From Sneathiella limimaris (GTDB lineage Bacteria; Pseudomonadota; Alphaproteobacteria; Sneathiellales; Sneathiellaceae): a DNA stretch of 64,000 nucleotides. The position numbers and the translations under genes are program-made. Each line of letters starts with the position of its first letter. Position 1 is the stretch's first letter. The notes under the pieces are model-generated. The model was not told the origin of the DNA. It worked only from the letters and a program-made list of their open reading frames with translations, and ran no database searches. Shown here one piece after another: positions 23,987-38,292 of the stretch. The DNA lies in NCBI RefSeq assembly GCF_012932565.1, contig NZ_JABBYJ010000001.1:248001-312000 (forward strand), written 5' to 3'.

Positions 23987-24504
23987 CTCTTTTTCTCCTC
24001 AGCGTCATCCTCAAGCAACGTCTTGAGCTTCTGTTCTTCCTCTGGTGTCAGTGCACTGGAAATGCCGCCGTCCGCCACAGCTTCTTTAGACTTGCGGCGA
24101 AGAAATTGCCACATGAACACCGCTCCAATGAAGAAAAACAGAACCGGCGCTAACCAAAGCAATAAAGTTCTTGGTTTGAAAGGGGGATCTAGAAGAACCC
24201 AGTCACCATATCGGGATACTAAATAAGTTTTGACCTGATCATCACTGTCCCCAGCCGCAACCCGCTCTCTCACAATAGATCTTAAGTCTTTGGCAAGATC
24301 CGCGTTACTATCCATGATCGATTGGTTTTGGCACACCAGACATCGAATTCCATCTGCAATGTCTCGTGCTCTTTCCTCAAGCTTGGGATCTTCAAGCCGT
24401 TCCTCAACAAATATCGCATTTGCGGCAGACACAAACAGAACAAACACGCTCAACGTTATCAATAGACTTGATACCAGCCTTTTATAAAGCTGAAGATCTG
24501 TCAT
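23983..24504 (-). CDS. ccmH: Cytochrome c maturation protein CcmH (CcmL type)
   Basis: CcmH is a membrane-anchored thiol-redox protein that acts on apocytochrome c in the periplasm. The 173-residue product has an N-terminal signal-like helix, the redox motif CLVCQNQSI (LRCLVCQ type) near residue 54, and the family block YGDWVLLDPPFK. A second transmembrane segment near residue 118 is followed by an acidic cytoplasmic tail. This is the short single-domain form. The second domain of E. coli CcmH is provided here by ccmI. It overlaps ccmG by 1 base. Confidence 0.95.
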   Translation of the reverse strand: MTDLQLYKRLVSSLLITLSVFVLFVSAANAIFVEERLEDPKLEERARDIADGIRCLVCQNQSIMDSNADLAKDLRSIVRERVAAGDSDDQVKTYLVSRYGDWVLLDPPFKPRTLLLWLAPVLFFFIGAVFMWQFLRRKSKEAVADGGISSALTPEEEQKLKTLLEDDAEEKKR

Positions 24505-25037
24505 TAACCCAAATTCCCAGTAAGCCGAGGGAGGATTTTCTGCTGCAGGTCTCTCTCTGTTATTGGACCAATGATTTTATCCAAGATTGTGCCATCAGGC
24601 CCCATAATGAAAGTTTCTGGAACACCGTACACACCGAAATCGATGCCAACGCGCCCCTTCAAGTCCATGCCTGTTCGGGTATAAGGGTTGCCATGTTTCT
24701 TCAACCATTTAGCCGCTGCTTCTGGCGTGTCCTTATAGTTTAATCCGAAAATTTCGACTTTTCCTGCTCGCTTTAGTTCCATCAGTGTTGGATGCTCCGC
24801 CAAGCAGGCGACACACCAGGAAGCGAAGACGTTCAACAAGGTGACTTTACCGGAGCGCAGATCCGTTGCAGACAAATCCTCTCCATAACCTGGAACTGCA
24901 GTAAGAGAAAATTCTGGAGCCTTTTTATCAATCAGCTCAGACGGAATTTCACTTGGATCCAAATAAAATAAGGCATAAAGCATAACCCCAGAAATCACGG
25001 CAAATGTGATTAGCGGCGCAAGGAATTTTAATTTCAT
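24504..25037 (-). CDS. ccmG: Thiol:disulfide interchange protein CcmG/DsbE
   Basis: CcmG is a membrane-tethered periplasmic thioredoxin that keeps apocytochrome c cysteines reduced. The 177-residue protein has one N-terminal membrane helix and a thioredoxin fold with NVFASWCVACLAEHP, giving a CVAC active site where CVPC or CPTC is more usual. Downstream it has the cis-proline context YGVPETFIMGPDG and the FGLNYKD segment. It overlaps ccmF by 4 bases and ccmH by 1. Confidence 0.94.
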   Translation of the reverse strand: MKLKFLAPLITFAVISGVMLYALFYLDPSEIPSELIDKKAPEFSLTAVPGYGEDLSATDLRSGKVTLLNVFASWCVACLAEHPTLMELKRAGKVEIFGLNYKDTPEAAAKWLKKHGNPYTRTGMDLKGRVGIDFGVYGVPETFIMGPDGTILDKIIGPITERDLQQKILPRLTGNLG

Positions 25038-27028
25038 CCGGACACCTCTGCTGGCCTTTGTGGTTTCGTTGATGCCTTACTCTTTTGAACAGACCCAATG
25101 CGGAAACGTCGATCACTCAGGCTGAAAAGACCACCAATGAACATCACGATCGCGCCACCCCAAATCCAGGATACGAATGGCTTGTGATAAATCCGGGTTG
25201 CGTGGCCACCTTTACCATCACTTTCCCCAATTACCACATAAAGGTCCGCGCTTAGCATCGGCCAAATAGCAGCTTCAGTGGTCTCCATAGGCGGTGATTG
25301 ATAAACGCGTTGTTCCGGCGTTAAGGTTACGATCTTTTGGCCCTCTTTAGTTACGTCAAAAGTGCCACTTAACGTATCATAGTTGGGCCCGCGCCCCTCA
25401 GCTGCGCCTTTAAAGGTAAATTCATAACCGCCGACCGACACAGTTTCATTGGGCATCATGACGCCCAATCGCTCACTTTGCCAAGCTTCCGACGCGGTAA
25501 CCCCAAGGATAACCATTGCTACACCTAGATGGGCAAGAGTCATGCCATGAGCACTTCTCGGCAAGTTCCTCATACGTTTGAAACTGTTGGAAAAACTAGT
25601 TCTAAATAGTTTGATGCGCTCCGCCCATTCAATCAAAACTGCTGCTGTCAGCCATGCGAATAAGGCCATACCTACAAATGCTAAAACTGGGCCTTCATCA
25701 ACGATCCACCATGTCACCCCAAGCAAAACAAGAACAGCAACGACCGCAAGCTTTAACCGATCAAGTACGGATTTCAAATCGGCTCGCTTCCAAGGAAGGA
25801 ACGGTCCAAACGCCAACGCCACGATGAGTGGCATAGCAAGCGGGAGAAACGTGGAGTTAAAGAAAGGGGGGCCAACCGAGACTTTCGCACCTGAAACTGC
25901 ATCCAGAAATAACGGATATAAGGTTCCCAATAAAACCGTTGCCGCAGCTGTCGATAGCAGGAGATTGTTGAAAACCAGTGCCCCTTCACGACTAATCGGC
26001 GCGAAAACCCCACCACCACGCATTTTCGGTGCTCGAATTGCATAAAGTGTCAGAGACCCGCCAACGACAACAAACAGGAAAGCCAGAATGAAAACGCCTC
26101 TTTCAGGATCTGTTGCGAACGCGTGTACAGAATTAAGCACACCGGAGCGAACAAGAAACGTACCTAGCAGAGAAAAACTGAAAGCAATAATTGCAAGCAA
26201 GATGGTCCAGTTTTTCAAAGCATCTCGTTTCTCAACAACAATGGCAGAGTGCAATAGAGCCGTAGAAATCAGCCAAGGCATAAAGGAGGCATTTTCAACG
26301 GGGTCCCAGAACCACCAACCACCCCAGCCGAGCTCGTAATAGGCCCACCAGGAGCCGAGCGCGATCCCGAGTGTCAAAAATCCCCACGCAGCCAACGTCC
26401 AAGGGCGAACCCACCTCGCCCAGGCCGGATCGACTTTTCCCTCTATCAAAGCTGCGATCGCAAAGGAAAAGGTTACAGAAAGTCCAACATAACCCAGATA
26501 AAGAAAAGGCGGATGAAAAGCCAACCCTGGATCTTGTAGCAGCGGGTTTAAGCCTCTCCCCTCAAACGGGGCCGGATCTAGCCGCTCAAACGGATTTGAT
26601 GTAAAAAGAATGAACAATAAAAAGCCGACGCCAATTAAACCCTGAATGGACAACACCCTGGCTTTAAGGGATGCAGGGAGATATCGACCAAAGATTGCAA
26701 CGGCAAGCCCAAACAACGCTAGGATCCAGGCCCAAAGAAGCAGTGAACCTTCATGATTGCCCCAAACGCCACTAATTTTATACAGAAGCGGTTTTAATGA
26801 GTGAGAATTTTCCGCCACGTTAGAAACTGAAAAATCACTTCCTAAATAGGCAACAGTCAGGGCAAAGAAACTAAGCGTTACAGCGAGGAATTGAACGAGC
26901 GCAGAACTGGATGCAAAGTTCATCATAGGAAGATTGCGGCGGCCCGCACCAACCAGTGGAACAGTTCCTTGTAAAAGAGCAACAATTAGAGCCAGAATTA
27001 AGCCAAATTGACCAAGTTCAGCTGTCAT
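25034..27028 (-). CDS. ccmF: Cytochrome c haem lyase subunit CcmF
   Basis: CcmF is the large polytopic integral-membrane subunit that attaches haem to apocytochrome c with CcmH and CcmI. The 664-residue protein has many hydrophobic helices and the haem-handling tryptophan-rich WWD segment GWGGWWFWDPVENASFMPWL near residue 243. The GHPGVLLW-like NHEGSLLLWAW block comes before it, and the FLVRSGVLNSVHAFA block after it. The length is normal. It overlaps ccmE by 11 bases. Confidence 0.97.
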   Translation of the reverse strand: MTAELGQFGLILALIVALLQGTVPLVGAGRRNLPMMNFASSSALVQFLAVTLSFFALTVAYLGSDFSVSNVAENSHSLKPLLYKISGVWGNHEGSLLLWAWILALFGLAVAIFGRYLPASLKARVLSIQGLIGVGFLLFILFTSNPFERLDPAPFEGRGLNPLLQDPGLAFHPPFLYLGYVGLSVTFSFAIAALIEGKVDPAWARWVRPWTLAAWGFLTLGIALGSWWAYYELGWGGWWFWDPVENASFMPWLISTALLHSAIVVEKRDALKNWTILLAIIAFSFSLLGTFLVRSGVLNSVHAFATDPERGVFILAFLFVVVGGSLTLYAIRAPKMRGGGVFAPISREGALVFNNLLLSTAAATVLLGTLYPLFLDAVSGAKVSVGPPFFNSTFLPLAMPLIVALAFGPFLPWKRADLKSVLDRLKLAVVAVLVLLGVTWWIVDEGPVLAFVGMALFAWLTAAVLIEWAERIKLFRTSFSNSFKRMRNLPRSAHGMTLAHLGVAMVILGVTASEAWQSERLGVMMPNETVSVGGYEFTFKGAAEGRGPNYDTLSGTFDVTKEGQKIVTLTPEQRVYQSPPMETTEAAIWPMLSADLYVVIGESDGKGGHATRIYHKPFVSWIWGGAIVMFIGGLFSLSDRRFRIGSVQKSKASTKPQRPAEVSG

Positions 27029-27467
27029 TGCCTGCCTCTTTCTCTTTCCATTGACCCCTTTCCTTCAAACTCTCCGCAACTTCTGGCGGCATATAATTCT
27101 CGTCATGTTTAGCAAGAACATTGGTCGCCCTGAAAACTCCGTTTTCGTCCATTTGGCCTTCAGTGACCACACCTTGGCCTTCACGAAATAAATCTGGAAC
27201 CAAACCTCTATAGTGAACTTCAACGCTTTCAGCCATATCCGTGACTTTAAAGCGGATTTCCACCCCATCCTTTACATAACTTCCTTCTTCAACAAGGCCA
27301 CCTAAACGGAATGTCCTGCCTGCAGGAACTGGTTTCTCAACCAGATCGGAAGGGCTGTGAAAAAACACTAGGCTATCTTCAAAGGATGAGAGCACAAGAG
27401 CCGCGGCAACCCCGAGCACAGCCAAGCCGGAGAGAACAATATAGAGGCGACGCTTTTTCCTAGTCAT
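27018..27467 (-). CDS. ccmE: Haem chaperone CcmE
   Basis: CcmE is a periplasm-facing membrane-anchored haem chaperone that carries haem covalently from CcmC to CcmF. The 149-residue protein has a basic N-terminus, one helix (about 9-27) and an OB-fold domain. The haem-binding histidine is H121 in LAKHDENYMP, with the partner tyrosine Y125. It overlaps ccmD by 4 bases. Confidence 0.97.
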   Translation of the reverse strand: MTRKKRRLYIVLSGLAVLGVAAALVLSSFEDSLVFFHSPSDLVEKPVPAGRTFRLGGLVEEGSYVKDGVEIRFKVTDMAESVEVHYRGLVPDLFREGQGVVTEGQMDENGVFRATNVLAKHDENYMPPEVAESLKERGQWKEKEAGNDS

Positions 27468-27673
27468 ACTGTTTTCTCCCTCGCCTGGCGTCTTTGAGTC
27501 CGAGCAAGTTGCCGTTCCTCCTCCAACGGTTTTAACAACCGCTCAGTCACTTTCAACTTACGAATACTGAGAAAAACAAGAAGAAAAAGGACAAGGGCCG
27601 ATAACCCATATGACGGCCAGACAAAAGCCGCATAGCCACCCATGTGCAGAAATTCACTCAACGATCCATCCAT
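27464..27673 (-). CDS. ccmD: Haem exporter accessory protein CcmD
   Basis: CcmD is a 69-residue single-pass membrane protein that helps release holo-CcmE from the CcmABC complex. It has the family-typical opening HMGGYAAFVWPSYGLSALVL, one helix, and a long charged C-terminal tail. It lies 103 bases after ccmC and overlaps ccmE. The extreme shortness and the position in the operon support the call more than sequence detail does. Confidence 0.92.
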   Translation of the reverse strand: MDGSLSEFLHMGGYAAFVWPSYGLSALVLFLLVFLSIRKLKVTERLLKPLEEERQLARTQRRQAREKTV

Positions 27674-27776
27674 CCCAGCTCAGACCTCTGGTTATAGCCT
27701 TGATGCCTATATAATCTGTCTAGCCTTGTTTTCCAAGATTTCCAGGGCAAATGCGTCAGAATGACGCTCTAGGCCG

Positions 27777-28508
27777 CTATTCCTGAAGACGATTTATCTG
27801 CAACATTCGCAAGCGGCGGCTTAAGATTTCAGACTTCACCCGAATGATGAAGACACTCGCGAACAGAGCCAAATAAGCAACACCCATGATTAAAAGTGGC
27901 GTAAGAATTGAGCTATGAATTTTGGGCCCTTCCATAGTTGCCACGCTCGCTGGCTGATGGAGAGTGTTCCACCAATCAACAGAAAACTTGATAATCGGAA
28001 TATTGATAACACCGACGAGCACCAGAATTGCCGCTGCTTTAGCTGCCTTGGACTGATCATCAAAACTGGACCACAGAGCCATATATCCTAGATACAGAAA
28101 AAACAGGATCAGCATGCTGGTCAATCTCGCATCCCACACCCAATATGTTCCCCACATCGGCTGCCCCCAAAGAGCACCGGTAACGAGCGCCAGAAATGTG
28201 AAACATGCCCCAATCGGAGCAGAGGCCTTGGCAGACAGGTCCGCAACAGGATGCTTCCAGATCAAGCCGACCGCAGAGGCAACCGCCATCATCACATATA
28301 TGCTCATGGACATCCACGCAGCCGGGACGTGCACAAACATGATCCGAACCGTGTCGCCTTGCTGGTAATCTCTCGGAGAGACAAACAAGGCCATATATAA
28401 GCCAATCGCCAGCAGAATAACCGCTAACCCTGAAACCCAAGGGAATATGGCATCCGAAATTCTTAAGAAACGGGCCGGATTTGCAAACTTATGTAAATCC
28501 ACTGCCAT
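27777..28508 (-). CDS. ccmC: Haem transport/ligation membrane protein CcmC
   Basis: CcmC is a polytopic membrane protein that loads haem onto CcmE. The 243-residue product has about six helices. It has the WWD-type segment WGTYWVWDARLTS near residue 120 and flanking histidines in IMFVHVPAAWMS and NTLHQPAS, which are expected to coordinate haem. It lies between ccmB and ccmD in the operon. Confidence 0.96.
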   Translation of the reverse strand: MAVDLHKFANPARFLRISDAIFPWVSGLAVILLAIGLYMALFVSPRDYQQGDTVRIMFVHVPAAWMSMSIYVMMAVASAVGLIWKHPVADLSAKASAPIGACFTFLALVTGALWGQPMWGTYWVWDARLTSMLILFFLYLGYMALWSSFDDQSKAAKAAAILVLVGVINIPIIKFSVDWWNTLHQPASVATMEGPKIHSSILTPLLIMGVAYLALFASVFIIRVKSEILSRRLRMLQINRLQE

Positions 28509-28551
28509 TATTCAACCGCCTGCTCTTCTCTCATGGTCCAATTCTTCATTC

Positions 28552-29217
28552 TTACTCAACCGCTAGTCTTAAGGCTGCCCCAGACGCAATCGGACTTACT
28601 ACCAACGCCCCCAATGACAAACCACCGAGTAACATCAAATGGGATTTCACTGGCAACATTCCGATCGATGCCTCGACGGCTGCTACGCCGAAAATAAGTA
28701 CTGGAATATATAAGGGCAAGACCAGAAGCGACAACAGGACACCACCGCGACGCATCGCCACAGTAAGAGCACCGCCAATTGATCCTATTAAACTCAAAAC
28801 TGGCGAGCCAATCATTAAGGATAAAACCATAACCCAGATCCCGTCCGTCGGCAGATTAAGGGATATAGCAACAATTGGTGTGATCAGGATCAATGGAACA
28901 ACAGAGGTAATCCAATGAGCCGAAATCTTCGCGAGAACCATAAACTCAATTGGCAAGGGCCCCTGCATCAGTTGTTCGAGCGTACCATCCTCATAATCAG
29001 CCTGATACAGCCGATCCAAAGTCAACAAACATGCTAGTAGTGCCGCCACCCAAAGGACCCCAGGTGCGATCCGAGCCAAGATATTTAGCTCAGGCCCGAC
29101 ACCCAACGGAAATAAGGTCACCGCAATTACAAAGAAAGCCAATGTCATCGGAATTGTGCTTCCCTGCCGATATGCCAGCTTCAAATCGCGAAGAAACAAC
29201 GTCCAAAAGGCGATCAA
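28552..29217 (-). CDS. ccmB: Haem exporter permease CcmB
   Basis: CcmB is the 221-residue six-helix membrane subunit of the CcmAB ABC complex, whose ATP hydrolysis frees haem-loaded CcmE. The typical DLYQADYEDG-like LDRLYQADYEDGTLEQL block follows the second helix, and PLYIPVLIFGVAA lies near residue 173. It overlaps ccmA by 4 bases. Confidence 0.95.
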   Translation of the reverse strand: MIAFWTLFLRDLKLAYRQGSTIPMTLAFFVIAVTLFPLGVGPELNILARIAPGVLWVAALLACLLTLDRLYQADYEDGTLEQLMQGPLPIEFMVLAKISAHWITSVVPLILITPIVAISLNLPTDGIWVMVLSLMIGSPVLSLIGSIGGALTVAMRRGGVLLSLLVLPLYIPVLIFGVAAVEASIGMLPVKSHLMLLGGLSLGALVVSPIASGAALRLAVE

Positions 29218-29834
29218 GACAGGTCTCCAGCATATTCAGAAATATCGAGAATATCCTCTGTCCCTGTTCCTAGATCCTGGTGTGTTGCCAGTACGGCCAT
29301 TCCTTTGGCAGCTATATGCTTTTTCAAGACACTCCGAAATAAGTCGATATAGTGACTGTCGAGTGAACTAATCGGCTCATCCAGAATCCATAGAGGCGTG
29401 TTACTGATCAACAGCCGAGCCAAGTTGGATCGCTTCTTCTGTCCCGCCGATAGGTTTTGTGTGGGGTAATCAGCGATTTTATCCAACTCGAATGTAGTTA
29501 TGGCTTCCGCCACGTCACTACTTCCCCGATATTTAGACCAAAAGCTCAGATTTTCGCGTGGTGAAAACGAACCTTTCAAAGCATCTTGATGTCCAATGTA
29601 AGAAAACTCTCTTTGGTACTCCATAGGGTCATCACCCACAGACTTTCCGTTCCAGAGAAACTCTCCTGAAGCGGGTTTAAGGAGACAAGCCAGGACACGC
29701 AGCAATGACGATTTGCCGGATCCATTGGGACCTTTTACCCAAAGTACGCGACCCGGGGACAATGAAAAGTCAACACCTTGAAAGATGCACCTTTCCTGCC
29801 GAATACAGGACAAATTGCTTGCAGCTAGAGTCAT
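29214..29834 (-). CDS. ccmA: Cytochrome c biogenesis ATP-binding protein CcmA
   Basis: CcmA is the ABC ATPase partner of CcmB. I start the gene at MTLAASNLSCIRQ (206 residues). The longer reading frame would begin inside the terminator of the gene upstream. The Walker A is GPNGSGKSS, the signature region is NLSAGQKKR, and the Walker B is LWILDEPISSLD. It heads the ccm operon, so its promoter must lie in or near the short stretch between the terminator at 29851-29888 and the start codon, or transcription enters by read-through. Confidence 0.95.
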   Translation of the reverse strand: MTLAASNLSCIRQERCIFQGVDFSLSPGRVLWVKGPNGSGKSSLLRVLACLLKPASGEFLWNGKSVGDDPMEYQREFSYIGHQDALKGSFSPRENLSFWSKYRGSSDVAEAITTFELDKIADYPTQNLSAGQKKRSNLARLLISNTPLWILDEPISSLDSHYIDLFRSVLKKHIAAKGMAVLATHQDLGTGTEDILDISEYAGDLS

Positions 29835-29850
29835 AGACCTAAACGCCCAT

Positions 29851-29888
29851 AAAAAAAGGAACAATCCTTGACTACAGGATTGTCCCTT
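29851..29888 (-). terminator. Intrinsic terminator after the PaaK-like gene
   Basis: On the minus strand GGGACAATCCT and AGGATTGTTCC form an 11-bp stem (one G-U pair) with a 7-base loop, followed by seven T. It ends the transcript of the PaaK-like gene and separates it from ccmA. Confidence 0.92.
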
Positions 29889-29924
29889 TAATCGCAATAG
29901 ACTTAAGAAGTCTTGATTCTGGGC

Positions 29925-31172
29925 TTATTCGTATGTCCGTTGGTCATCAATAACCTTACCGTCATTGGCCAGACTACCAATAGCCACAAATTCAACATCA
30001 CCCTTCAGTTTGCAAAGACTCTGAACTGATTGTGCAACGGCAGCTTTTAAATCTTCACTTCCACCGTCCACTTCACACTGAAGCGTCATCTGGTCCACAT
30101 TGTCAGAACTCGTAACGACGAGGCGAACTTTCTTCAGTTCTGAATGTCTTTTCTGGACGTCCGCCACACTACCTGGGTGTACGAACATTCCTTTCACCTT
30201 GGCAGTTTGATCGGCTCGGCCCATCCAGCCTTTAATCCGCGGTCCTGTCCGCCCGCAAGAGCTCCCCTCAGGCAGAAAAGCGGACATGTCACCAGTACCG
30301 AAACGAATGAGTGGATATGTTTTATTGAACGTTGTAACGACAACTTCGCCAACTTCACCAGGGGCAACTGGATCTCCGGTGCCTGGGCGAACGATTTCGA
30401 CAATAATCCCCTCATCGATCGTCATGCCTTCCATGGCTTCAGTTTCGTATGCAATTAGTCCAAGATCAGCAGTACCGTAGGACTGGATTACTGTTTCAAT
30501 ACCCATATCCTGTAATTGCTGGCGCAAGGAAGGAGGCAGCGCTTCACCGCCCACGCTCGCAACCTTCAGAGAAGACATATCCATTCCAGCTTCCTTGCCT
30601 TTTTCCAGCAGGATTTTAAGAAAAGAAGGGGTCCCCACATAGGCTCTCGGCTTCAAAGTAGCGATCGCCTGAAGTTGCATTTCTGTATTTCCAATACCGG
30701 CCGGAAATACTGGACAGCCCACAGCGCGGGCACCACTTTCCATCATGTGTCCGGCAGGTGTCATGTGATAGGAAAACGTATTATACACCAGGTCACCGGG
30801 ACGGAAACCAGCCGCCCACATTGCCCGGCCCATCCGGAAATAGTCTTTGGTACTCTGACCTGGCTCAAAAATTGGTCCTGGTGACATAAAGACGTTTGCG
30901 ACAGATCCAATATCCTCACCATTTAGCCCACCTAAGGGTGGATTATCTTTCTGTTTGGCAATTAGGTCTGATTTACGCGTTACCGGTAGTTTAGCCAACT
31001 CTTCGAGACTATTCACAGACGCTGGATCAACATCCTTCAGGATTTCCCCAAAATAGGCGGAATTCGTTTTTGCATGCGCCAATTGTTCCTGAAGCTTCGC
31101 AATCTGGTCTTTCAGCCGTTGCTCAGAAGATCTGGTCTCCAGATCATCATAATATTTACCAGAGCCTGTCAT
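29925..31172 (-). CDS. PaaK-like phenylacetate-CoA ligase family protein with degenerate P-loop
   Basis: This is a 415-residue ANL-superfamily protein, starting at MTGSGKYYDDLETRS. A longer frame begins inside the terminator upstream. It follows PaaK over much of its length (for example VIQSYGTADLGLIAYETE and GWMGRADQTAKVKGMFVHP). However, the adenylate P-loop, normally SSGTTGKPT, reads FMSPGPIFEPGQ at about residues 95-106. It may therefore bind AMP differently or be non-catalytic. It lies after the liv ABC genes with its own terminators on both sides. CoA ligation is inferred from the family only. Confidence 0.78.
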   Translation of the reverse strand: MTGSGKYYDDLETRSSEQRLKDQIAKLQEQLAHAKTNSAYFGEILKDVDPASVNSLEELAKLPVTRKSDLIAKQKDNPPLGGLNGEDIGSVANVFMSPGPIFEPGQSTKDYFRMGRAMWAAGFRPGDLVYNTFSYHMTPAGHMMESGARAVGCPVFPAGIGNTEMQLQAIATLKPRAYVGTPSFLKILLEKGKEAGMDMSSLKVASVGGEALPPSLRQQLQDMGIETVIQSYGTADLGLIAYETEAMEGMTIDEGIIVEIVRPGTGDPVAPGEVGEVVVTTFNKTYPLIRFGTGDMSAFLPEGSSCGRTGPRIKGWMGRADQTAKVKGMFVHPGSVADVQKRHSELKKVRLVVTSSDNVDQMTLQCEVDGGSEDLKAAVAQSVQSLCKLKGDVEFVAIGSLANDGKVIDDQRTYE

Positions 31173-31206
31173 GTTTTTTCTCTTTCTAATCGATAGCCTT
31201 GTTATC

Positions 31207-31250
31207 AATAAAAAAGGCAACCAAAACCTTCATGATTTTTAGTTGCCTTC
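31207..31250 (-). terminator. Intrinsic terminator after livF
   Basis: On the minus strand AAGGCAAC and GTTGCCTT form an 8-bp stem around a roughly 20-base loop, followed by TTTT-rich sequence. It lies just after livF and overlaps the 5' end of the unextended PaaK-like reading frame. Confidence 0.85.
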
Positions 31251-31258
31251 CTCTTTGA

Positions 31259-32080
31259 TTAAGCAAGCCAACGTTTACGCCGCCGGTAATGCTTCACATC
31301 TCTAAAGCTCTTGCGACCGTCGCCGCCCAGGCCGAGATAAAATTCTTTTACGTCCTCGTTATTAGACAGATCTTTTGCATCACCATCCATCACAACGCGA
31401 CCGTTTTCCAAGATATATCCATAATGCGCATATTTCAGCGCGATCGTTGCGTTTTGCTCAGCAACAAGAAAACTCACACCTGTTTCCTCGTTAAGCCGCT
31501 TTACGATCTCAAAAATTTCTTCCACCAGCTGCGGAGCAAGTCCCATTGATGGCTCATCCAATAGGATCAAGCTTGGTTCTGCCATCAGGGCACGACCAAC
31601 TGCCACCATCTGCTGTTCGCCACCGGATACGTATCCAGCCAGTGATGTCCGACGTTCTTTCAAACGTGGAAAATAATGATAAACCTTCTCAAGTTCCTCA
31701 TTGATCATAGCCCGGCCGCCTTTTCGAGTATAGGCGCCGGTCAGCAAATTCTCTTCAACCGTCAAATGTTCAAAACAATGACGACCTTCCATCACCTGGA
31801 CAACACCCTGGGTTACCAGTTCGGCAGGTGATTTTTCAGTAATGTTTTCGCCACGGTACTCAATCGAGCCTTTCGTAACCTCCCCTCGCTCAGAGCGGAG
31901 GAGGTTCGAAATGGCTTTCAAGGAAGTCGTCTTGCCAGCACCATTAGCCCCTAGGATTGAGACAATGGACCCTTCCGGCACCTCAAGAGAGACACCTTTC
32001 AAGACGAGGATCACATGGTCATAAATGACCTCGATATTATTCACCCTGAGAAGGGGATTGCTTGACGCATTCATTGGCAA
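31259..32080 (-). CDS. livF: Branched-chain-type ABC transporter ATP-binding protein (LivF family)
   Basis: This 273-residue ATPase of a HAAT-type importer has Walker A GANGAGKT, signature YVSGGEQQM and Walker B LILLDEPSMGLAPQLV. The C-terminal end carries a basic tail (SFRDVKHYRRRKRW). The family name suggests branched-chain amino acids, but related importers carry urea, short amides or aromatic acids, so the substrate is not determined. It is the last of the five transporter genes and is followed by a terminator. Confidence 0.9.
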   Translation of the reverse strand: MPMNASSNPLLRVNNIEVIYDHVILVLKGVSLEVPEGSIVSILGANGAGKTTSLKAISNLLRSERGEVTKGSIEYRGENITEKSPAELVTQGVVQVMEGRHCFEHLTVEENLLTGAYTRKGGRAMINEELEKVYHYFPRLKERRTSLAGYVSGGEQQMVAVGRALMAEPSLILLDEPSMGLAPQLVEEIFEIVKRLNEETGVSFLVAEQNATIALKYAHYGYILENGRVVMDGDAKDLSNNEDVKEFYLGLGGDGRKSFRDVKHYRRRKRWLA

Positions 32081-32105: not shown

Positions 32106-33422
32106 TTAGGAGCAGCTAACTGCATCCAAACCTTTTTCTTTCAGGTAGCTTTCAGCAGATTTTTTCATCGCTGGCAGAACGAGATCATCCATAGGAGTAA
32201 GCTCGTCTGAAACGATGTTCCACTTCTTGCCATCCCACTGCTGGATGCGGAAAGAACCGCCGCCAACATGGTCTGAACAGGTTGGTGAAATTTCTGGACC
32301 CATGCCTGCAACACCCATTTTCTCGGCCATTGCTGCATCCATCTTCAGATTTTCCATACCCCAGCGAAGCTGTTCGGAAGTAATTGCTTTCACACCGAAT
32401 TTTTCCTGTGCTGCAAGAATACCAGCGTGGATAAAGACCTGTGTCAGAACAGAACGGTTATAAAGCACTTGGCCAACGTTCTCTTTACCTGCACCATTAC
32501 CTTTGTCATAAACATGTTTCATAATGTCTTGGATGACTGGGAATTCTGTGCCAGCAGCAGAGAAAGTTGCACTCTTATAGCCAACAGCTGCATCACCTGC
32601 AGGAATTGTGTCCTGCTCAGCACCGGCCCACCAGTTACCAATGAAGTTTTCTGCTGGGAAGCGGATTTTAGCAGCTTCTTTGATTGCGGCTGCGTTCATC
32701 GCACCCCAACCCCACATGACAATGTAGTCAGGTTTTGCACGGCGGATCTGCAGCCATGTTGCTTTCTGCTCAATACCTGGGAATACCACTGGGTATTTCT
32801 TCAGGTTAAAGCCGAATTTTTCGGACAAGGTTTCCATAATCGGAATGGATTCTTTACCATAGGCGATGTCTAGATAAACAAGGGCAACAGTCTTGCCTTT
32901 AACGTTATCCATTCCACCTTCCTGCTGGCCAATATACTTCAGGATACCAGTTGCCTGACCCCAGTAGTTAGTCATCAGAGGAAATACATATGGGAAAGCT
33001 GTGCCAATACCGGCATCGGCACGACCATAACCCATTGTCAGAAGTGGAATTTTATCTGTCCGTGTCCGATCAGCCAGGGCGTAGGTTACACCTGTGCTGT
33101 ATGGTTGGTAAATCAGCGCACCACCATTGTTGCCTTTTGTACGTTCATAGCACTCAACACCACGGTCAGTGTTGTAACCGAACTCGCATTCTTCGTGAAT
33201 GACCCGCGCGCCGTTGACGCCACCGTCACGCTCATTGATCATCGCCCAATAGTCAGCTGCACCATTGGCTGTTGGAATACCACCCGGCGCAAAAGGTCCA
33301 GTACGATAAACCAGTTTCGGCAAATACAGTGTATCTTCTGCAAAAGCCGGGGCTGGCGCTGTAAACGGAGCCGCAAGAACAGCAGCCCCCAAAGCACCGA
33401 GAACAAATTTCTTCAAACTCAT
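32106..33422 (-). CDS. HAAT-type ABC transporter substrate-binding protein
   Basis: This 438-residue periplasmic binding protein has a signal peptide (MSLKKFVLGALGAAVLAAPF, cleaved after about APAFA) and a type-I Peripla_BP domain beginning TLYLPKLVYRTGPFAPGG. The binding region contains DYWAMINERDGGVNGARV. The length is greater than classical LivJ/LivK (about 370). A cysteine pair near the end could form a disulfide. The subtype is often found with an adjacent acyl-CoA ligase, which points to an organic acid rather than leucine, but this is inference. Confidence 0.88.
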   Translation of the reverse strand: MSLKKFVLGALGAAVLAAPFTAPAPAFAEDTLYLPKLVYRTGPFAPGGIPTANGAADYWAMINERDGGVNGARVIHEECEFGYNTDRGVECYERTKGNNGGALIYQPYSTGVTYALADRTRTDKIPLLTMGYGRADAGIGTAFPYVFPLMTNYWGQATGILKYIGQQEGGMDNVKGKTVALVYLDIAYGKESIPIMETLSEKFGFNLKKYPVVFPGIEQKATWLQIRRAKPDYIVMWGWGAMNAAAIKEAAKIRFPAENFIGNWWAGAEQDTIPAGDAAVGYKSATFSAAGTEFPVIQDIMKHVYDKGNGAGKENVGQVLYNRSVLTQVFIHAGILAAQEKFGVKAITSEQLRWGMENLKMDAAMAEKMGVAGMGPEISPTCSDHVGGGSFRIQQWDGKKWNIVSDELTPMDDLVLPAMKKSAESYLKEKGLDAVSCS

Positions 33423-33526: not shown

Positions 33527-34612
33527 TCAATATGGAAACGGCCAGGTTCTCAGTTTTTCCTTACCGATGGTCCATAGTCTTGCAAGCCCATGAGGCTCAA
33601 CAATCAAGAAAAAGATAATCAGGACACCAAACACCATGAATTCAAGGTGGGCGACCATGTCTACTCCAATATCCCAACCGACCATAGGAGGTACATTATT
33701 CAGGAAAATTGGCAAAAGCATGATGAAGCCGGCCCCAATGAACGATCCAAGAATACTGCCCATACCACCAATGATCACCATAAACAGAATGGCGAACGAC
33801 CGATTGATACCAAAAGCTTCCGGTTCAACAGTTCCGAGATGGACAAATGCCCAGAGTGCGCCGGCCACACCGCAGAAGAAAGAGCTGACCGCAAACGCTG
33901 ATAATTTTGTCTGAAGTGGCTTAAAGCCAATAATCTCTGCAGCAATATCCATGTCGCGGATAGCCATCCAACCGCGGCCAATATGACTTCGAACAAGGTT
34001 CTTGGCTGCCAAAGCGAGAACAGCAACAAAAACCAAGGTGAAGATATATTTTTCTGCAGCGGTATTAAATTCGTAACCCAGGACCACCAAAGGCGGTGCA
34101 GTGATCACACCGGAAGGGCTGTAGTTTGTAAACCAACCAACTTTAACAAACAGCCATTCTAGGAAGAACTGAGCCGCAAGGGTTGCCACAGCCAGATAGA
34201 AGCCTTTGATCCGCAAAGACGGAATACCAAACATAATCCCAACAAGGGCAGCAACCAGTCCAGACAACAGAATGGTTAATACCAACGGCATGGTTCCTTC
34301 GAACCCACCAACTGTGATAGTGAATGTCGCAAACTTATAAGCTGCGAACGCACCAACAGCCATGAACCCGCCGGTTCCGAGTGAAATCTGCCCTGCATAA
34401 CCTGTCAAAATATTCAGGCCGATCGCAGCCAGCGCCAAGATCAAAAACGGTGTCATGATGGCGCTAATGAAATACTCACCCCCAAATAGTGGGATACCAA
34501 CAAAAGCGATGAGCAAGATTATTCCAATGCCAATCCGGTCCTGAAGGATCGGAAATACCGCCTGGTCTTCTTTATAAGAGGACTTAAACTGTCCAGCTTC
34601 ACGATAAAACAT
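33527..34612 (-). CDS. livM: ABC transporter permease (LivM family)
   Basis: This 361-residue inner-membrane permease of the HAAT importer has many hydrophobic helices and the family block NILTGYAGQISLGTGGFMAVGAF near residue 68. The coupling-helix region is RSHIGRGWMAIRDMDIAAE near residue 208. It pairs with LivH to form the channel and is 5 bases after it. Confidence 0.92.
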   Translation of the reverse strand: MFYREAGQFKSSYKEDQAVFPILQDRIGIGIILLIAFVGIPLFGGEYFISAIMTPFLILALAAIGLNILTGYAGQISLGTGGFMAVGAFAAYKFATFTITVGGFEGTMPLVLTILLSGLVAALVGIMFGIPSLRIKGFYLAVATLAAQFFLEWLFVKVGWFTNYSPSGVITAPPLVVLGYEFNTAAEKYIFTLVFVAVLALAAKNLVRSHIGRGWMAIRDMDIAAEIIGFKPLQTKLSAFAVSSFFCGVAGALWAFVHLGTVEPEAFGINRSFAILFMVIIGGMGSILGSFIGAGFIMLLPIFLNNVPPMVGWDIGVDMVAHLEFMVFGVLIIFFLIVEPHGLARLWTIGKEKLRTWPFPY

Positions 34613-34617
34613 TCTGA

Positions 34618-35511
34618 CTAAACCCTCTCAATAATCTTTTCACCGAACAGGCCCTGCGGACGGAACAGCAGGAACAGCATCGCCAGCATGTATGCAAACC
34701 AGTTTTCGATCGCACCGCCGACGATTGGGCCAAGATAGATTTCAGCCATCTTTTCACCGGCACCAATGATCAATCCACCTACGATCGCGCCAGGAATAGA
34801 CGTAAAGCCACCCAACATAAGCACAGGCAGCGCTTTCAGGGCAATCAGGCTCAGACTAAATTGAACACCCAGCTTAGAGCCCCACATGATACCAGCAACA
34901 AGGCCAACGAGACCCGCAACTGTCCACACAACGATCCAGATGAAGCGAAGGGAAATACCAACGGACATAGCTGCCTGGTGATCATCAGCAACAGCACGAA
35001 GAGCCCGGCCAATTTTCGTTTTATTAAAGAAGATTGCTAAGAGCGCCACCAAAGCAGCAGCTGTCAAACCCGCAACCAACTCAAGTTGATCAATGAAAAT
35101 ACCTCCGACATCAAAAATGTCGTTCGGAAGACCAATATCCAGAACCTTAATGTCACTTCCCCACACTGTCTGGCCAAAACCATCCAGGAAGAACGTAACA
35201 CCAATGGTCGCCATAAAGAGGATAATGGGTTCTTGATTGACCAGCTTACCCAGCACGAATTTCTCTACGCACCAAGCCAAGGCAACCATAATTGCCACTG
35301 TAATGAGGAAGGCAATTGACCAATGAACGCCAAGCGCTTCCTGAACACCCACGAGGCTGAGAGCTGCAAACAGCATCATCGCGCCCTGGGCAAAGTTAAA
35401 CACACCTGAGGCTTTAAAAATCAGCACGAAGCCGAGAGCCACCAGGGAATAAAGGGCACCTGTCAACAATCCACTGAACAGGACCTCAACGAAGAACAAA
35501 AAGTCCGCCAT
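34618..35511 (-). CDS. livH: ABC transporter permease (LivH family)
   Basis: This 297-residue permease is the LivM partner. It begins with VEVLFSGLLTGALYSLVALG and has NFAQGAMMLFAAL near residue 38. Its coupling segment TKIGRALRAVADDHQAAMSVG is near residue 164. Its C-terminus FRPQGLFGEKIIERV is typical of the family. It lies between livG and livM. Confidence 0.92.
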   Translation of the reverse strand: MADFLFFVEVLFSGLLTGALYSLVALGFVLIFKASGVFNFAQGAMMLFAALSLVGVQEALGVHWSIAFLITVAIMVALAWCVEKFVLGKLVNQEPIILFMATIGVTFFLDGFGQTVWGSDIKVLDIGLPNDIFDVGGIFIDQLELVAGLTAAALVALLAIFFNKTKIGRALRAVADDHQAAMSVGISLRFIWIVVWTVAGLVGLVAGIMWGSKLGVQFSLSLIALKALPVLMLGGFTSIPGAIVGGLIIGAGEKMAEIYLGPIVGGAIENWFAYMLAMLFLLFRPQGLFGEKIIERV

Positions 35512-35532: not shown

Positions 35533-36324
35533 TTAATGACCGCCGCCCAGATAGGCGTCGATAACTTTCTGGTTGCTACGGACCTCATCAGGAACACCAT
35601 CCCCGATCTTCCCTCCGTAATCGAGGACCATCACTCGATCGGAAATATCCATAACCACACCCATATCATGCTCAATAAGACAAATGGTCGTGCCAAACTC
35701 ATCATTAACATCAAGGATAAAGCGGCACATGTCCTCTTTCTCCTCAAGGTTCATACCAGCCATTGGCTCGTCCAGAAGCAGAAGCTCGGGCTCAGCAGCA
35801 AGTGCCCGGCCCAATTCAACACGTTTTTGCAGACCGTAAGGAAGCCGGCCTACAGGTGTTTTCCGAATGGCTTCAATTTCCAGAAAATCAATAATGTCTT
35901 CTACGAAACGCCGATGCTCCAACTCTTCCTTCTGGGCACTTCCCCACCAGAACATAGAGGACAGCAGGCTTGATTTCATTTTAAGATTCCTGCCTGTCAT
36001 GATGTTGTCCAGTGTGGACATTCCGCGGAACAGAGCCACGTTTTGGAAGGTCCTCGCAATACCCTGGGTGGCAGCCTCGTGAGGCTTCATGGCACTCCGT
36101 GTTTGACCTTTGTAGGTTATTGTACCCTGCTGCGGATGATAAAATCCGTTAATGCAGTTCAACATGGAAGTTTTACCAGCACCGTTTGGTCCAATGATTG
36201 CCCGGATTTCACCTTTCTTGATGTCAAAACTAACATCAGAAATCGCTCGCACCGCACCAAAAGAAAGGCTGATATCTTCTACTTCCAGCAGGACATCGCC
36301 TGGCTTGTAGTCTTGATTTGTCAT
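35533..36324 (-). CDS. livG: ABC transporter ATP-binding protein (LivG family)
   Basis: This is the 263-residue second ATPase of the importer. Walker A is GPNGAGKTS, the arginine-rich Q-loop region is GIARTFQNVALF, the degenerate signature is LPYGLQKRVELGRAL and the Walker B is LLLLDEPMAGMN. The C-terminal end (VRSNQKVIDAYLGGGH) is usual for LivG. It follows fadD by 18 bases and shares its transcript with livH. Confidence 0.93.
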   Translation of the reverse strand: MTNQDYKPGDVLLEVEDISLSFGAVRAISDVSFDIKKGEIRAIIGPNGAGKTSMLNCINGFYHPQQGTITYKGQTRSAMKPHEAATQGIARTFQNVALFRGMSTLDNIMTGRNLKMKSSLLSSMFWWGSAQKEELEHRRFVEDIIDFLEIEAIRKTPVGRLPYGLQKRVELGRALAAEPELLLLDEPMAGMNLEEKEDMCRFILDVNDEFGTTICLIEHDMGVVMDISDRVMVLDYGGKIGDGVPDEVRSNQKVIDAYLGGGH

Positions 36325-36342: not shown

Positions 36343-38292
36343 TTATGATGCGGCTTTCATTGCCGGGAATGTTTCTGAATTCATGACTTTTACGGAGGCT
36401 TTCAGCTTACCTTTGCGGCCATCCTCAAATGTCATTTCAGATTCAATATCTGCCACCTTCACATCGCTGAACAATGCAGTAATCAAAGGCTCATAGCGTT
36501 CCGCAATAATCCGACGACGAACTTTTCGCGTTCTTGTCAATTCGCCATCATCCGCGTCCAAAGCTTTTGGTAGAACTAGGAAACGCGTAATTTGCGCGCC
36601 AGCGAGTTCGCTATCAACGGCAAGATCTCTATTTACCGTTTCGATACACTCTTTAATCTGAGCGTAAACCTCATCGCGGTTGGCCAGATCCTGATAGCTC
36701 GCATAGGAAATCCCGCGCCGCTCTGCCCAGTTTCCTACAGCTTCTAGATCAATGTTGATAAAGGCCGTAACGGTATCCCGATCAGCACCGTGACATACCG
36801 CTTCAGAAATAAACGGAAAGAACTTGAGCTTGTTTTCAATGTACTGAGGCGCGAACAACGTTCCGTCATTCAATTTGCCCACATCTTTCGCCCGGTCGAT
36901 CACCTTCAGCTGACCATCGTCGGTCATGATGCCGGCATCGCCTGTGTGAACCCAACCTTCAGCGGTTTTGGTTTCTTCGGTCGCCTCATCATTCTTGTAA
37001 TAGCCAACAAACGCGCCCGGACTCTTGTAGAGCACTTCGCCACTTGCATCATCGATCTTGATCTCACAGCCAGGCGCAGGCGGCCCTACCGTATCCGGAC
37101 GGACATCCTTATCATTTTGAATACACACATACGCACATGACTCTGTCTGACCATAAAGCTGTTTCAAATTCACGCCCAGTGAGCGATAGAATTTAAACAC
37201 CTCTGGTCCCATCGGCGCACCGGCTGTATAAGCAACTCTGATCTGACTGAAGCCAAGCGTGTTTTTCAACGGCCCGTAAATCAGCAAATTTCCGAGCGAA
37301 TAGAGAAGCCTGTCTTTAAGAGATACTGGCTTTCCTTCCATGATCTCCACGCCACACCGCTTCGCAACATCGATAAAGTAATGAAACAGCTTCTGCTTGA
37401 TAGCACTGGCATCTTCAATGCGGATCATCATCTGAGTCAGCATATTTTCGAAGATGGCGGGAGGTGCAAAATAGTAGGTTGGGCCAATTTCCCTGAGATC
37501 CGTCAGAACTGTTTCGGCATTTTCTGGGCAATTAACTGAGAACCCAGCTGTTGCCGCCTGCGAATAAGAGAACAAATGATCACCAACCCAGGCCATTGGC
37601 AGGTAGGAAAGAACCTTGTCTTTCTCTGTTAGATTTTCAAATTCAACGGATAAACGGCCAGCAGTGACCATATTGTCAAAGCTAAGCATTACACCTTTTG
37701 GACGTCCGGTGGTTCCTGAAGTGTACATCAAGGTCGCGATATCGTCAGGTTTGGCTTTATCCGATTCCTGATCATAAAACCCTGGATGCTTCGCATCATA
37801 AGCGCGCCCCAGATCCTGAACATCTGAATAAGCTTTAATAAAGTCCTGCTTATAGTGCCGCATACCGCGCGGCTCTTTATAGATGATATATTCGATTGTC
37901 GGACACTGATCCATAATGGAGAGGACTTTATCGACCTGCTCCTGATCCTCCACAACCACAACTTTGACTTCTGCGTGAGCCAAAACATACTGAATTTCGT
38001 CTGCCACCCCATCTTGGTAAAGAGGCACTGGTAGAGCACCAATCGCCTGCGTTGCAGAGAAGACCCAATATAATTGAGGCCTGTTGGAGCCGATAATCGC
38101 TACCGCATCGCCCCGCTTAACGCCAAGATCAACCAACCCAAGGCCGAGCGCCCGGGAGTTTTCATACACATCTTTCCAAGTATAGGTCTGCCAAATCCCA
38201 AACTCTTTTTCTCGATAAGCAGGCACATTTGGACGAATTTCAGCATTTCTGCGGATCAGCTTTGGAAAAGTGTCAAATTCTGTCTTTGTCAT
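36343..38292 (-). CDS. Long-chain acyl-CoA synthetase (AMP-dependent, FadD15-like)
   Basis: This 649-residue AMP-forming ligase activates a carboxylic acid with ATP and CoA. The P-loop is canonical (LMYTSGTTGRPKGVML). It is followed by YLPMAWVGDHLF, an adenine-binding YGQTESCAYV and the GWVHTGDAGIMTDDGQLKVIDR block near residue 450. A cap-like C-terminal section is long. The length matches the eukaryotic-style long-chain group. It is the first gene of the ABC importer operon, suggesting that the imported compound is an acid that is converted to its CoA ester on entry. The exact chain or ring structure cannot be told. Confidence 0.88.
   Translation of the reverse strand: MTKTEFDTFPKLIRRNAEIRPNVPAYREKEFGIWQTYTWKDVYENSRALGLGLVDLGVKRGDAVAIIGSNRPQLYWVFSATQAIGALPVPLYQDGVADEIQYVLAHAEVKVVVVEDQEQVDKVLSIMDQCPTIEYIIYKEPRGMRHYKQDFIKAYSDVQDLGRAYDAKHPGFYDQESDKAKPDDIATLMYTSGTTGRPKGVMLSFDNMVTAGRLSVEFENLTEKDKVLSYLPMAWVGDHLFSYSQAATAGFSVNCPENAETVLTDLREIGPTYYFAPPAIFENMLTQMMIRIEDASAIKQKLFHYFIDVAKRCGVEIMEGKPVSLKDRLLYSLGNLLIYGPLKNTLGFSQIRVAYTAGAPMGPEVFKFYRSLGVNLKQLYGQTESCAYVCIQNDKDVRPDTVGPPAPGCEIKIDDASGEVLYKSPGAFVGYYKNDEATEETKTAEGWVHTGDAGIMTDDGQLKVIDRAKDVGKLNDGTLFAPQYIENKLKFFPFISEAVCHGADRDTVTAFINIDLEAVGNWAERRGISYASYQDLANRDEVYAQIKECIETVNRDLAVDSELAGAQITRFLVLPKALDADDGELTRTRKVRRRIIAERYEPLITALFSDVKVADIESEMTFEDGRKGKLKASVKVMNSETFPAMKAAS

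Follow-up and report, generated by a model that had tools for sequence, protein, structure and literature searches.

ANL enzymes are defined by the formation of an acyl-adenylate from ATP. A locus in the 64,000-nucleotide stretch of Sneathiella limimaris DNA analysed here (the window) raises the question of what a protein with the fold of the phenylacetate-CoA ligase PaaK does once the loop that binds the ATP phosphates has been replaced, when it is encoded behind an importer and a ligase whose own motifs are in place. The PaaK-fold protein with an SPGP loop (window positions 29925–31172) is hereafter denoted SPG.

The operon and its RNA elements

An earlier note on this DNA had placed the protein after a five-gene importer and a FadD-like ligase, and the operon reads as it described, in the order FadD-LivG-LivH-LivM-SBP-LivF-SPG (SBP, substrate-binding protein), all on the minus strand. 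The gene set of a HAAT importer with a dedicated FadD (LivF, LivG, LivH, LivM, Peripla_BP_6 and acyl-CoA synthetase) is complete in the window. HAAT (LivFGHMK-type) importers have the same five-gene layout and domains; clusters of the window type differ from others in that FadD lies inside the cluster, LivF carries a conserved basic tail and SPG is the last core gene. The features are, in window coordinates:

36343..38292, minus strand: FadD-like acyl-CoA synthetase, ANL motifs A3, A5, A7, A8 and A10 in place
35533..36324, minus strand: LivG-type ABC ATPase (domain searches)
34618..35511, minus strand: LivH-type permease (domain searches)
33527..34612, minus strand: LivM-type permease (domain searches)
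32106..33422, minus strand: periplasmic substrate-binding protein, Peripla_BP_6, related to 4ru0 (domain and PDB searches)
31259..32080, minus strand: LivF-type ABC ATPase with C-terminal tail RKSFRDVKHYRRRKRWLA (domain search, alignment)
31203..31258, minus strand: candidate terminator or attenuator in the gap from LivF to SPG, a strong RNA hairpin with a U run (folding)
29925..31172, minus strand: SPG, PaaK-fold protein with SPGP loop, 415 amino acids (sequence, domain searches, AlphaFold2 model)
30873..30884, minus strand: codons of S97-P98-G99-P100, site of the ATP phosphate-binding loop, motif A3 (sequence and alignments)
30288..30290, minus strand: codon of D295, the ribose-binding Asp of A7, retained (alignments)
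29955..29957, minus strand: codon of K406, the A10 lysine, present in the window protein
29855..29889, minus strand: terminator-like hairpin directly 3′ of SPG, 14 pairs, U run (terminator scan)

The stretch 31200–31262 folds with a minimum free energy of −24.4 kcal/mol (z −6.5), so that transcription of SPG may be separate from, or weaker than, that of the importer; the hairpin at 31203–31258 is absent from the list of sites returned by the terminator scan. That scan gave 17 terminator-like sites in the scanned stretch against 9.8 expected, the site at 29855–29889 having the most pairs. Further 3′ of SPG, in the window (24000–29900) and in Sneathiella relatives, lie genes which we take from their resemblance to be cytochrome c maturation genes. 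At locus L039 SPG stands beside the same putative cytochrome c maturation genes with the importer and FadD absent; a FadD-importer set of another subtype is found elsewhere in that genome.

SPG is a complete PaaK-fold protein

The SPG reading frame runs from an ATG at 31172 to a stop at 29925; the list of open reading frames also offers an upstream TTG at 31220, and the ATG is preferred because Sneathiella relatives align from residue 1. SPG carries the AMP-binding domain PF00501 that marks ANL proteins (57.9 bits, Pfam cut-off 29.9), whilst the PaaK-type C-terminal domain AMP-binding_C_2 (PF14535) is sub-threshold at 20.6 bits (Pfam cut-off 25). The closest PDB sequences are the PaaK-type ligases 4r1l, 2y4o, 2y27 and 6hdw, and a 43-row orthologue profile compared by hhalign with 16 canonical PaaK sequences matched them at a probability of 100 (E 1.1e-57, 30% identity). 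An AlphaFold2 model made with 43 aligned sequences (mean pLDDT 91.7, pTM 0.85) superposes over almost its whole length on 4r1l (VIA-align Z 38.4, the match reaching residue 414), on 2y4o (PaaK2 with phenylacetyl adenylate; Z 37.9) and on 6he0 (Z 36.4), and Foldseek matches it to 4r1m with an E of 6.5e-37. As these matches extend over nearly the full model, SPG is a whole PaaK-fold protein. In the annotated Azospirillum records examined it is named only as an 'AMP-binding protein'.

With PaaK (TIGR02155; 2y27, 2y4n, 2y4o) SPG shares the fold, a similar length, the A7 Asp, the Arg, Asp and Gly of A8 and the A10 region, and with the 2-hydroxyisobutyryl-CoA ligase HCL (6hdw, 6he0) the fold over the whole model. 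Atypical ANL proteins of related fold are EhpF (3hgu), which is without a C-terminal domain, at Z 19.0 and NatL2/AjiA1 (6tm4) at Z 30.4. HCL, a PaaK-type ligase for a small branched acid, is described as a CoA ligase in PMC8388817, according to which NatL2/AjiA1 shows no domain alternation.

Such a fold and domain content would be expected if SPG tolerated its loop and were still an ordinary ATP-dependent CoA ligase for the same or a second acid. Against this, SPG scores 145.8 bits with the NCBIfam PaaK equivalog model TIGR02155, far under the curated cut-off of 646.3, and the operon already encodes an intact-motif ligase, FadD. The residues described below bear on the same point.

The A3 loop is replaced, not degenerate

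Residues 93–107 of SPG are NVFMSPGPIFEPGQS; S97-P98-G99-P100-I101 aligns on the S-S-G-T-T of PaaK, both in hhalign against the 16 canonical sequences and in a profile alignment to the PaaK1 chain. Conservation was read from an orthologue set of 163 rows at ≥41% identity (162 distinct, the window protein being present twice; 155 clusters at 95% identity). Rows aligned over <250 residues were excluded from the loop counts. S97, P98 and G99 are each found in 163/163 rows, P100 in 157/163 and Ile or Leu at 101 in 162/163. The A3 motif [ST][ST]G[ST]TG is missing from all 163, compared with SSG[TS]TG in 17/17 canonical PaaK, where the positions of P98, P100 and I101 hold Ser (17/17), Thr (16, with Ser in 1 of 17) and Thr (17/17), respectively. 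The S-P-G loop recurs in 3/3 deeper relatives (SPG2, below) and in 0/32 other PaaK-like rows, canonical ones included; all 32 keep the P-loop (22 SSGTT, 5 TSGTT and 5 close variants).

The observation that started this analysis, namely SPGPI where PaaK has SSGTT, is therefore confirmed and, with S-P-G in every orthologue row, is not a matter of chance; it is the term 'degenerate', used for the loop in the earlier note, that has to be given up, since the loop does not vary and strong purifying selection acts on the gene. Pairwise comparison of the window SPG with L034, L037, L038 and L041 gives pN of 0.108–0.229 and pS of 0.758–0.834, with dS saturated, values that place the gene under such selection. 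From these alignments we regard the loop as a conserved replacement and not as decay. A decaying paralogue hitch-hiking in the operon might be expected to lose its main catalytic loop, as SPG has; given the invariant loop, the purifying selection and the retention of SPG with FadD even where the two are unlinked, such a fate is extremely improbable, and neutral decay or a pseudogene was rejected on the first two of these grounds.

In PaaK1 the ATP phosphates are bound by the loop backbone together with Ser94, Thr96 and Thr97, and loop mutants of one superfamily member show a 4- to 2,000-fold loss, a loop proline mutant being inactive (PMC8388817, available text). From the S-G-T-T spacing, the three PaaK1 residues would correspond to P98, P100 and I101 of SPG. 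An ordinary phenylacetate-CoA ligase bearing this loop would have made it a merely tolerated variant; the three nearest PDB relatives with inspected alignments (4r1l, 2y4o and 2y27) all have the ordinary SSGTT loop, and the literature searched, which is not the whole of it, contained no characterised protein with the SPG loop.

Other ANL motifs and residues particular to SPG

The A5 Ser of PaaK is Ala in 163/163 SPG orthologues, in which the Tyr/Phe and the Asp/Glu of A5 are kept (163/163). The A7 Asp (D295) and the A8 Arg (R319) are invariant, each in 163/163 orthologues and 3/3 SPG2. The A8 signature Rx(D/K)x6G is present, with R319, D321 and G328 each in 163/163 orthologues; all 3 SPG2 proteins keep the Arg and have lost the hinge Asp (D321 to Gly) and the Gly (G328 to Glu). 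The A10 Lys, described as highly conserved in the accessible part of PMC8388817, is found as K406 in 143/163 orthologues, the other 20 having Leu (8), Val (4), Ile (3), Arg (3), Met (1) or Ala (1), and in 0/3 SPG2. Read as a sequence argument, the pattern suggests that SPG has lost, or can do without, the residues for the ATP phosphates and keeps those recognising the ribose.

For the ordinary ligase introduced above, retention of A7, A8 and, in most rows, the A10 Lys is favourable; the loss of the three PaaK1 phosphate contacts and of the A5 Ser, and of the A10 Lys in 20/163 rows, is not. We consider an ordinary ligase improbable, and that SPG is something other than an ordinary ATP-dependent CoA ligase is, in our judgement, quite likely.

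The statement that GRADQ and KVKG regions remain in SPG proved correct as far as their presence goes (318–322 and 325–328), but the first residue of the latter, K325, is not that of PaaK, which has Ile in 17/17 canonical sequences. K325 belongs to a set of residues that are unlike PaaK and invariant in SPG (H136, P139, K325 and F330, in place of Gly, Thr, Ile and Asn; 163/163 orthologues and 3/3 SPG2), to which E243 can be added (161/163 and 3/3). Aromatic residues and Lys occur at the positions of F330 and K325 in other ANL families, and the idea that these two residues mark a further loss of phosphate binding was dropped for that reason.

These unusual residues, common to SPG and SPG2, would suit an active enzyme whose chemistry has changed so as to bypass ATP; it might, for instance, take the acyl-AMP made by FadD and pass the acyl group to CoA or another acceptor, or convert an acyl-CoA. 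The invariant A7 Asp and A8 Arg point the same way, as do the hinge Asp and Gly of A8, which serve the second half-reaction and are kept by the orthologues, and the acyl-CoA genes that adjoin SPG in several loci. However, SPG2 has lost the hinge Asp and Gly with the loop kept, so a function shared by both groups is unlikely to need the thioesterification state, and the motifs of FadD suffice for both half-reactions. A changed enzyme is thus an alternative to which we give some weight but which we think unlikely. A narrower 'split ligase', in which SPG carries out thioesterification only, is weakened by the same two A8 losses in SPG2.

Deeper relatives

Three proteins at 33–38% identity, SPG2, have the same loop as SPG:

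L123, 8935–10137: SPG2 member
L163, 8977–10203: SPG2 member
L164, 2977–4170: SPG2 member

A branch supported at 100/100 separates SPG (34 rows) and SPG2 (3) from all 32 PaaK-like rows in a 69-row maximum-likelihood tree. Long branches join where SPG, SPG2 and PaaK meet, as the program itself warns, and for this reason a single origin of the loop in SPG and SPG2, suggested by the tree, is likely but not proven. The importer-FadD operon is repeated at L164; at L123 the SPG2 gene lies in an acyl-CoA catabolic island, surrounded by acyl-CoA dehydrogenases, a hydratase, a carboxylase and a lyase.

Gene order and co-occurrence with FadD

The order seen in the window recurs in loci labelled alpha-, beta- and gammaproteobacterial; Azospirillum and others have a different binding protein and the order LivG-FadD-LivH-LivM-SBP-LivF-SPG. 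In at least 132/164 loci with enough flank, a same-strand LivF lies upstream of SPG at a distance of ≤700 bases; this is an undercount (L064 and L080 were missed), and the set includes a few genes twice, as separate loci. The 'stops inside' some SPG homologues, followed up in four of them (L165–L168), turned out to be only each protein's own C-terminal stop.

In a class sample of 289 genomes, SPG was found in 83, FadD (E≤1e-130) in 76, both in 76 and FadD alone in 0 (phi 0.94); the corresponding counts in a phylum sample of 398 genomes, which overlaps the first in some genomes, are 67, 66, 66 and 0 (phi 0.99). The lists were compiled by hand and include a few fragmentary SPG entries (G080, G228), and a gene is counted as absent if no match reached the threshold. 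Some FadD matches at E≤1e-130 belong to importers with no SPG close by, in genomes that have SPG elsewhere. Seven SPG genomes of the class sample lack FadD at this threshold, of which G272 and G176 have a FadD of 36–37% identity adjoining SPG (L113, L115); the sole such genome of the phylum sample, G502, in fact has a FadD (50% identity) beside the operon. Across a common set of 96 genomes, phi with SPG is 0.95 for FadD versus 0.50 for canonical PaaK (a match of >600 bits, 16 genomes). The link to the importer and FadD proposed from the window is borne out by this conserved gene order and near-absolute co-occurrence. SPG is a large, strictly conserved ANL branch (83/289 class genomes) without the ATP loop, and a near-obligate companion of an intact-motif ligase and an importer.

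The pairing persists without linkage. SPG and FadD are on different contigs in 20/76 class genomes, from assemblies that are partly fragmentary, and lie ~26 kb apart in G189 and ~186 kb apart in G593. SPG stands away from any importer at L039, L043, L065, L116 and L130; the genomes of the last four have an orthologous FadD (55–57%) with adjoining LivG and LivH elsewhere. Among four further genomes searched, three have a FadD of 39–46% and that of L040 has none at E≤1e-60. Conversely, importer-FadD systems without a nearby SPG are found at L255, L256, L258 and L260–L265, and a genome of the same genus, G265, has an importer-FadD system and no SPG; SPG is therefore not required by every such system.

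The partner ligase and the LivF tail

FadD was examined in 81 rows, 53 of them ≥50% identical to the window protein. The A3 loop TSGTT is present in every row covering it, both in these (50/50) and in the rest (28/28), as is the A10 Lys (53/53 and 27/27). The window genome also has, at a separate site, a canonical PaaK above the curated cut-off. With the FadD motifs intact and a canonical PaaK of its own, the organism has no evident need of SPG as a ligase.

LivF ends in the basic tail RKSFRDVKHYRRRKRWLA (codons at about 31262–31315, minus strand). Among 134 distinct LivF proteins whose fetched stretch also encodes SPG, FadD or both, 130 have an RRRKRWL-type tail, 1 RRKKRWL and 3 another basic tail; among LivF proteins with neither in the fetched stretch, stretches that are often short, a basic tail was seen in 0/29. 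FadD-linked importers without a nearby SPG (L260–L265) also carry the tail, which consequently goes with FadD and not with SPG; the tail was rejected as a marker of SPG, and is possibly a docking site for FadD. A second importer-FadD system in the window organism's own genome (L255, contig C2, 354503–373270) has no adjoining SPG and a LivF with a different basic tail, RGKRRWKKRKTWR.

A proposed non-adenylating partner of the acyl-CoA synthetase

Our preferred reading, held tentatively and at a little under even chances, is that SPG has the PaaK fold but does not adenylate, and is the partner of an acyl-CoA synthetase coupled to import, most likely as a ligand binder. Going by family, the HAAT-type ABC importer would bring a carboxylic acid into the cell, where the operon FadD, going by its motifs, would make the acyl-CoA. 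SPG would have given up the half-reaction from ATP to acyl-adenylate, retaining a ligand-binding cleft with ribose-recognising residues, and would act beside FadD or the importer; most probably it would sense, hold or hand over an acyl ligand (acid, acyl-AMP or acyl-CoA). The partner role is supported by the replaced loop contacts, the lost A5 Ser, the optional A10 Lys and the invariant A7 Asp and A8 Arg, and also by the constant presence of SPG with FadD in the samples, the persistence of the pair when unlinked, the intact FadD motifs and the organism's own PaaK elsewhere. The earlier suggestion of a CoA-ligase relative that has changed its reaction, or of a binding or regulatory protein, stands in so far as SPG is a relative whose grip on the ATP phosphates has been replaced; we lean to a binder or regulator over a changed enzyme, mainly because SPG2 has lost the thioesterification hinge too.

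Several observations counsel caution over the partner role. D321 and G328 (163/163) and K406 (143/163) are kept, as would be expected if domain alternation or thioesterification persists; some SPG loci lie apart from importers and some importer-FadD systems have no SPG nearby; and the hairpin between LivF and SPG may separate their expression, to which the long branches at the join of the tree can be added.

In a bolder version of the partner role, rather doubtful at present, the LivF tail would dock FadD at the membrane and the acyl intermediate would be received or gated by SPG, a second and obligate ANL subunit, so that uptake is directly coupled to CoA activation. If this were true, one activation reaction would be shared by two ANL proteins, one intact and one without the P-loop. 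Eukaryotic DIP2 resembles the SPG/FadD pair in placing a motif-losing ANL unit (FLD2) beside an intact one (FLD1); in DIP2, however, both units are in one polypeptide and FLD2 has lost A5 and A7, whereas SPG is a separate protein that has lost A3 and kept A7 (PMC9342972, in its accessible portion). Should the partner reading be right, SPG would be a testable pseudo-ligase that controls or shares carboxylate activation; together with the LivF tail it points to uptake-coupled CoA activation in HAAT importers of uncharacterised substrate.

The literature searched, whose coverage leaves out most subscription journals, contained no paper attributable to SPG, its operon or such ANL proteins, and the system goes unmentioned in the available parts of the GapMind paper (PMC9007349) and of a Ruegeria transporter paper (PMC10130141); this silence is weak evidence that the family is new. 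Among the proteins of a Roseobacter proteome is a 'paaK, phenylacetate-CoA ligase, putative' of 44.68 kDa (PMC4103551, excerpt), whose mass would suit SPG and which may be a candidate for it.

Clues to the imported acid

The nearest solved relative of the binding protein is 4ru0, whose only designation is putative branched-chain amino acid binding protein, and it gives no clue to the substrate. Annotated genes downstream of SPG in Azospirillum include an aldehyde dehydrogenase, isovaleryl-CoA dehydrogenase, thiolase, acyl-CoA dehydrogenase, carboxyl transferase, enoyl-CoA hydratase and biotin carboxylase, and near SPG at L129 are a carboxylase, a hydratase, a thiolase and a relative of hydroxymethylglutaryl-CoA lyase. 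A type III CoA-transferase relative occurs in 19/98 long SPG loci, in 16 of them at ≥57% identity and adjacent to SPG, all labelled betaproteobacterial; most of the 98 have none of these acyl-CoA or CoA-transferase genes. Our best guess is a branched or isoprenoid-type acid in some lineages, and there may be several substrates across SPG systems.

At L065 (5761–8863) and L044, two genes next to SPG on the opposite strand resemble boxB and boxC of the aerobic benzoyl-CoA pathway. Genes for branched-acyl-CoA breakdown, of the isovaleryl-CoA dehydrogenase/carboxylase type, lie near SPG at L218 (10279–19221), L091, L105 and L129.
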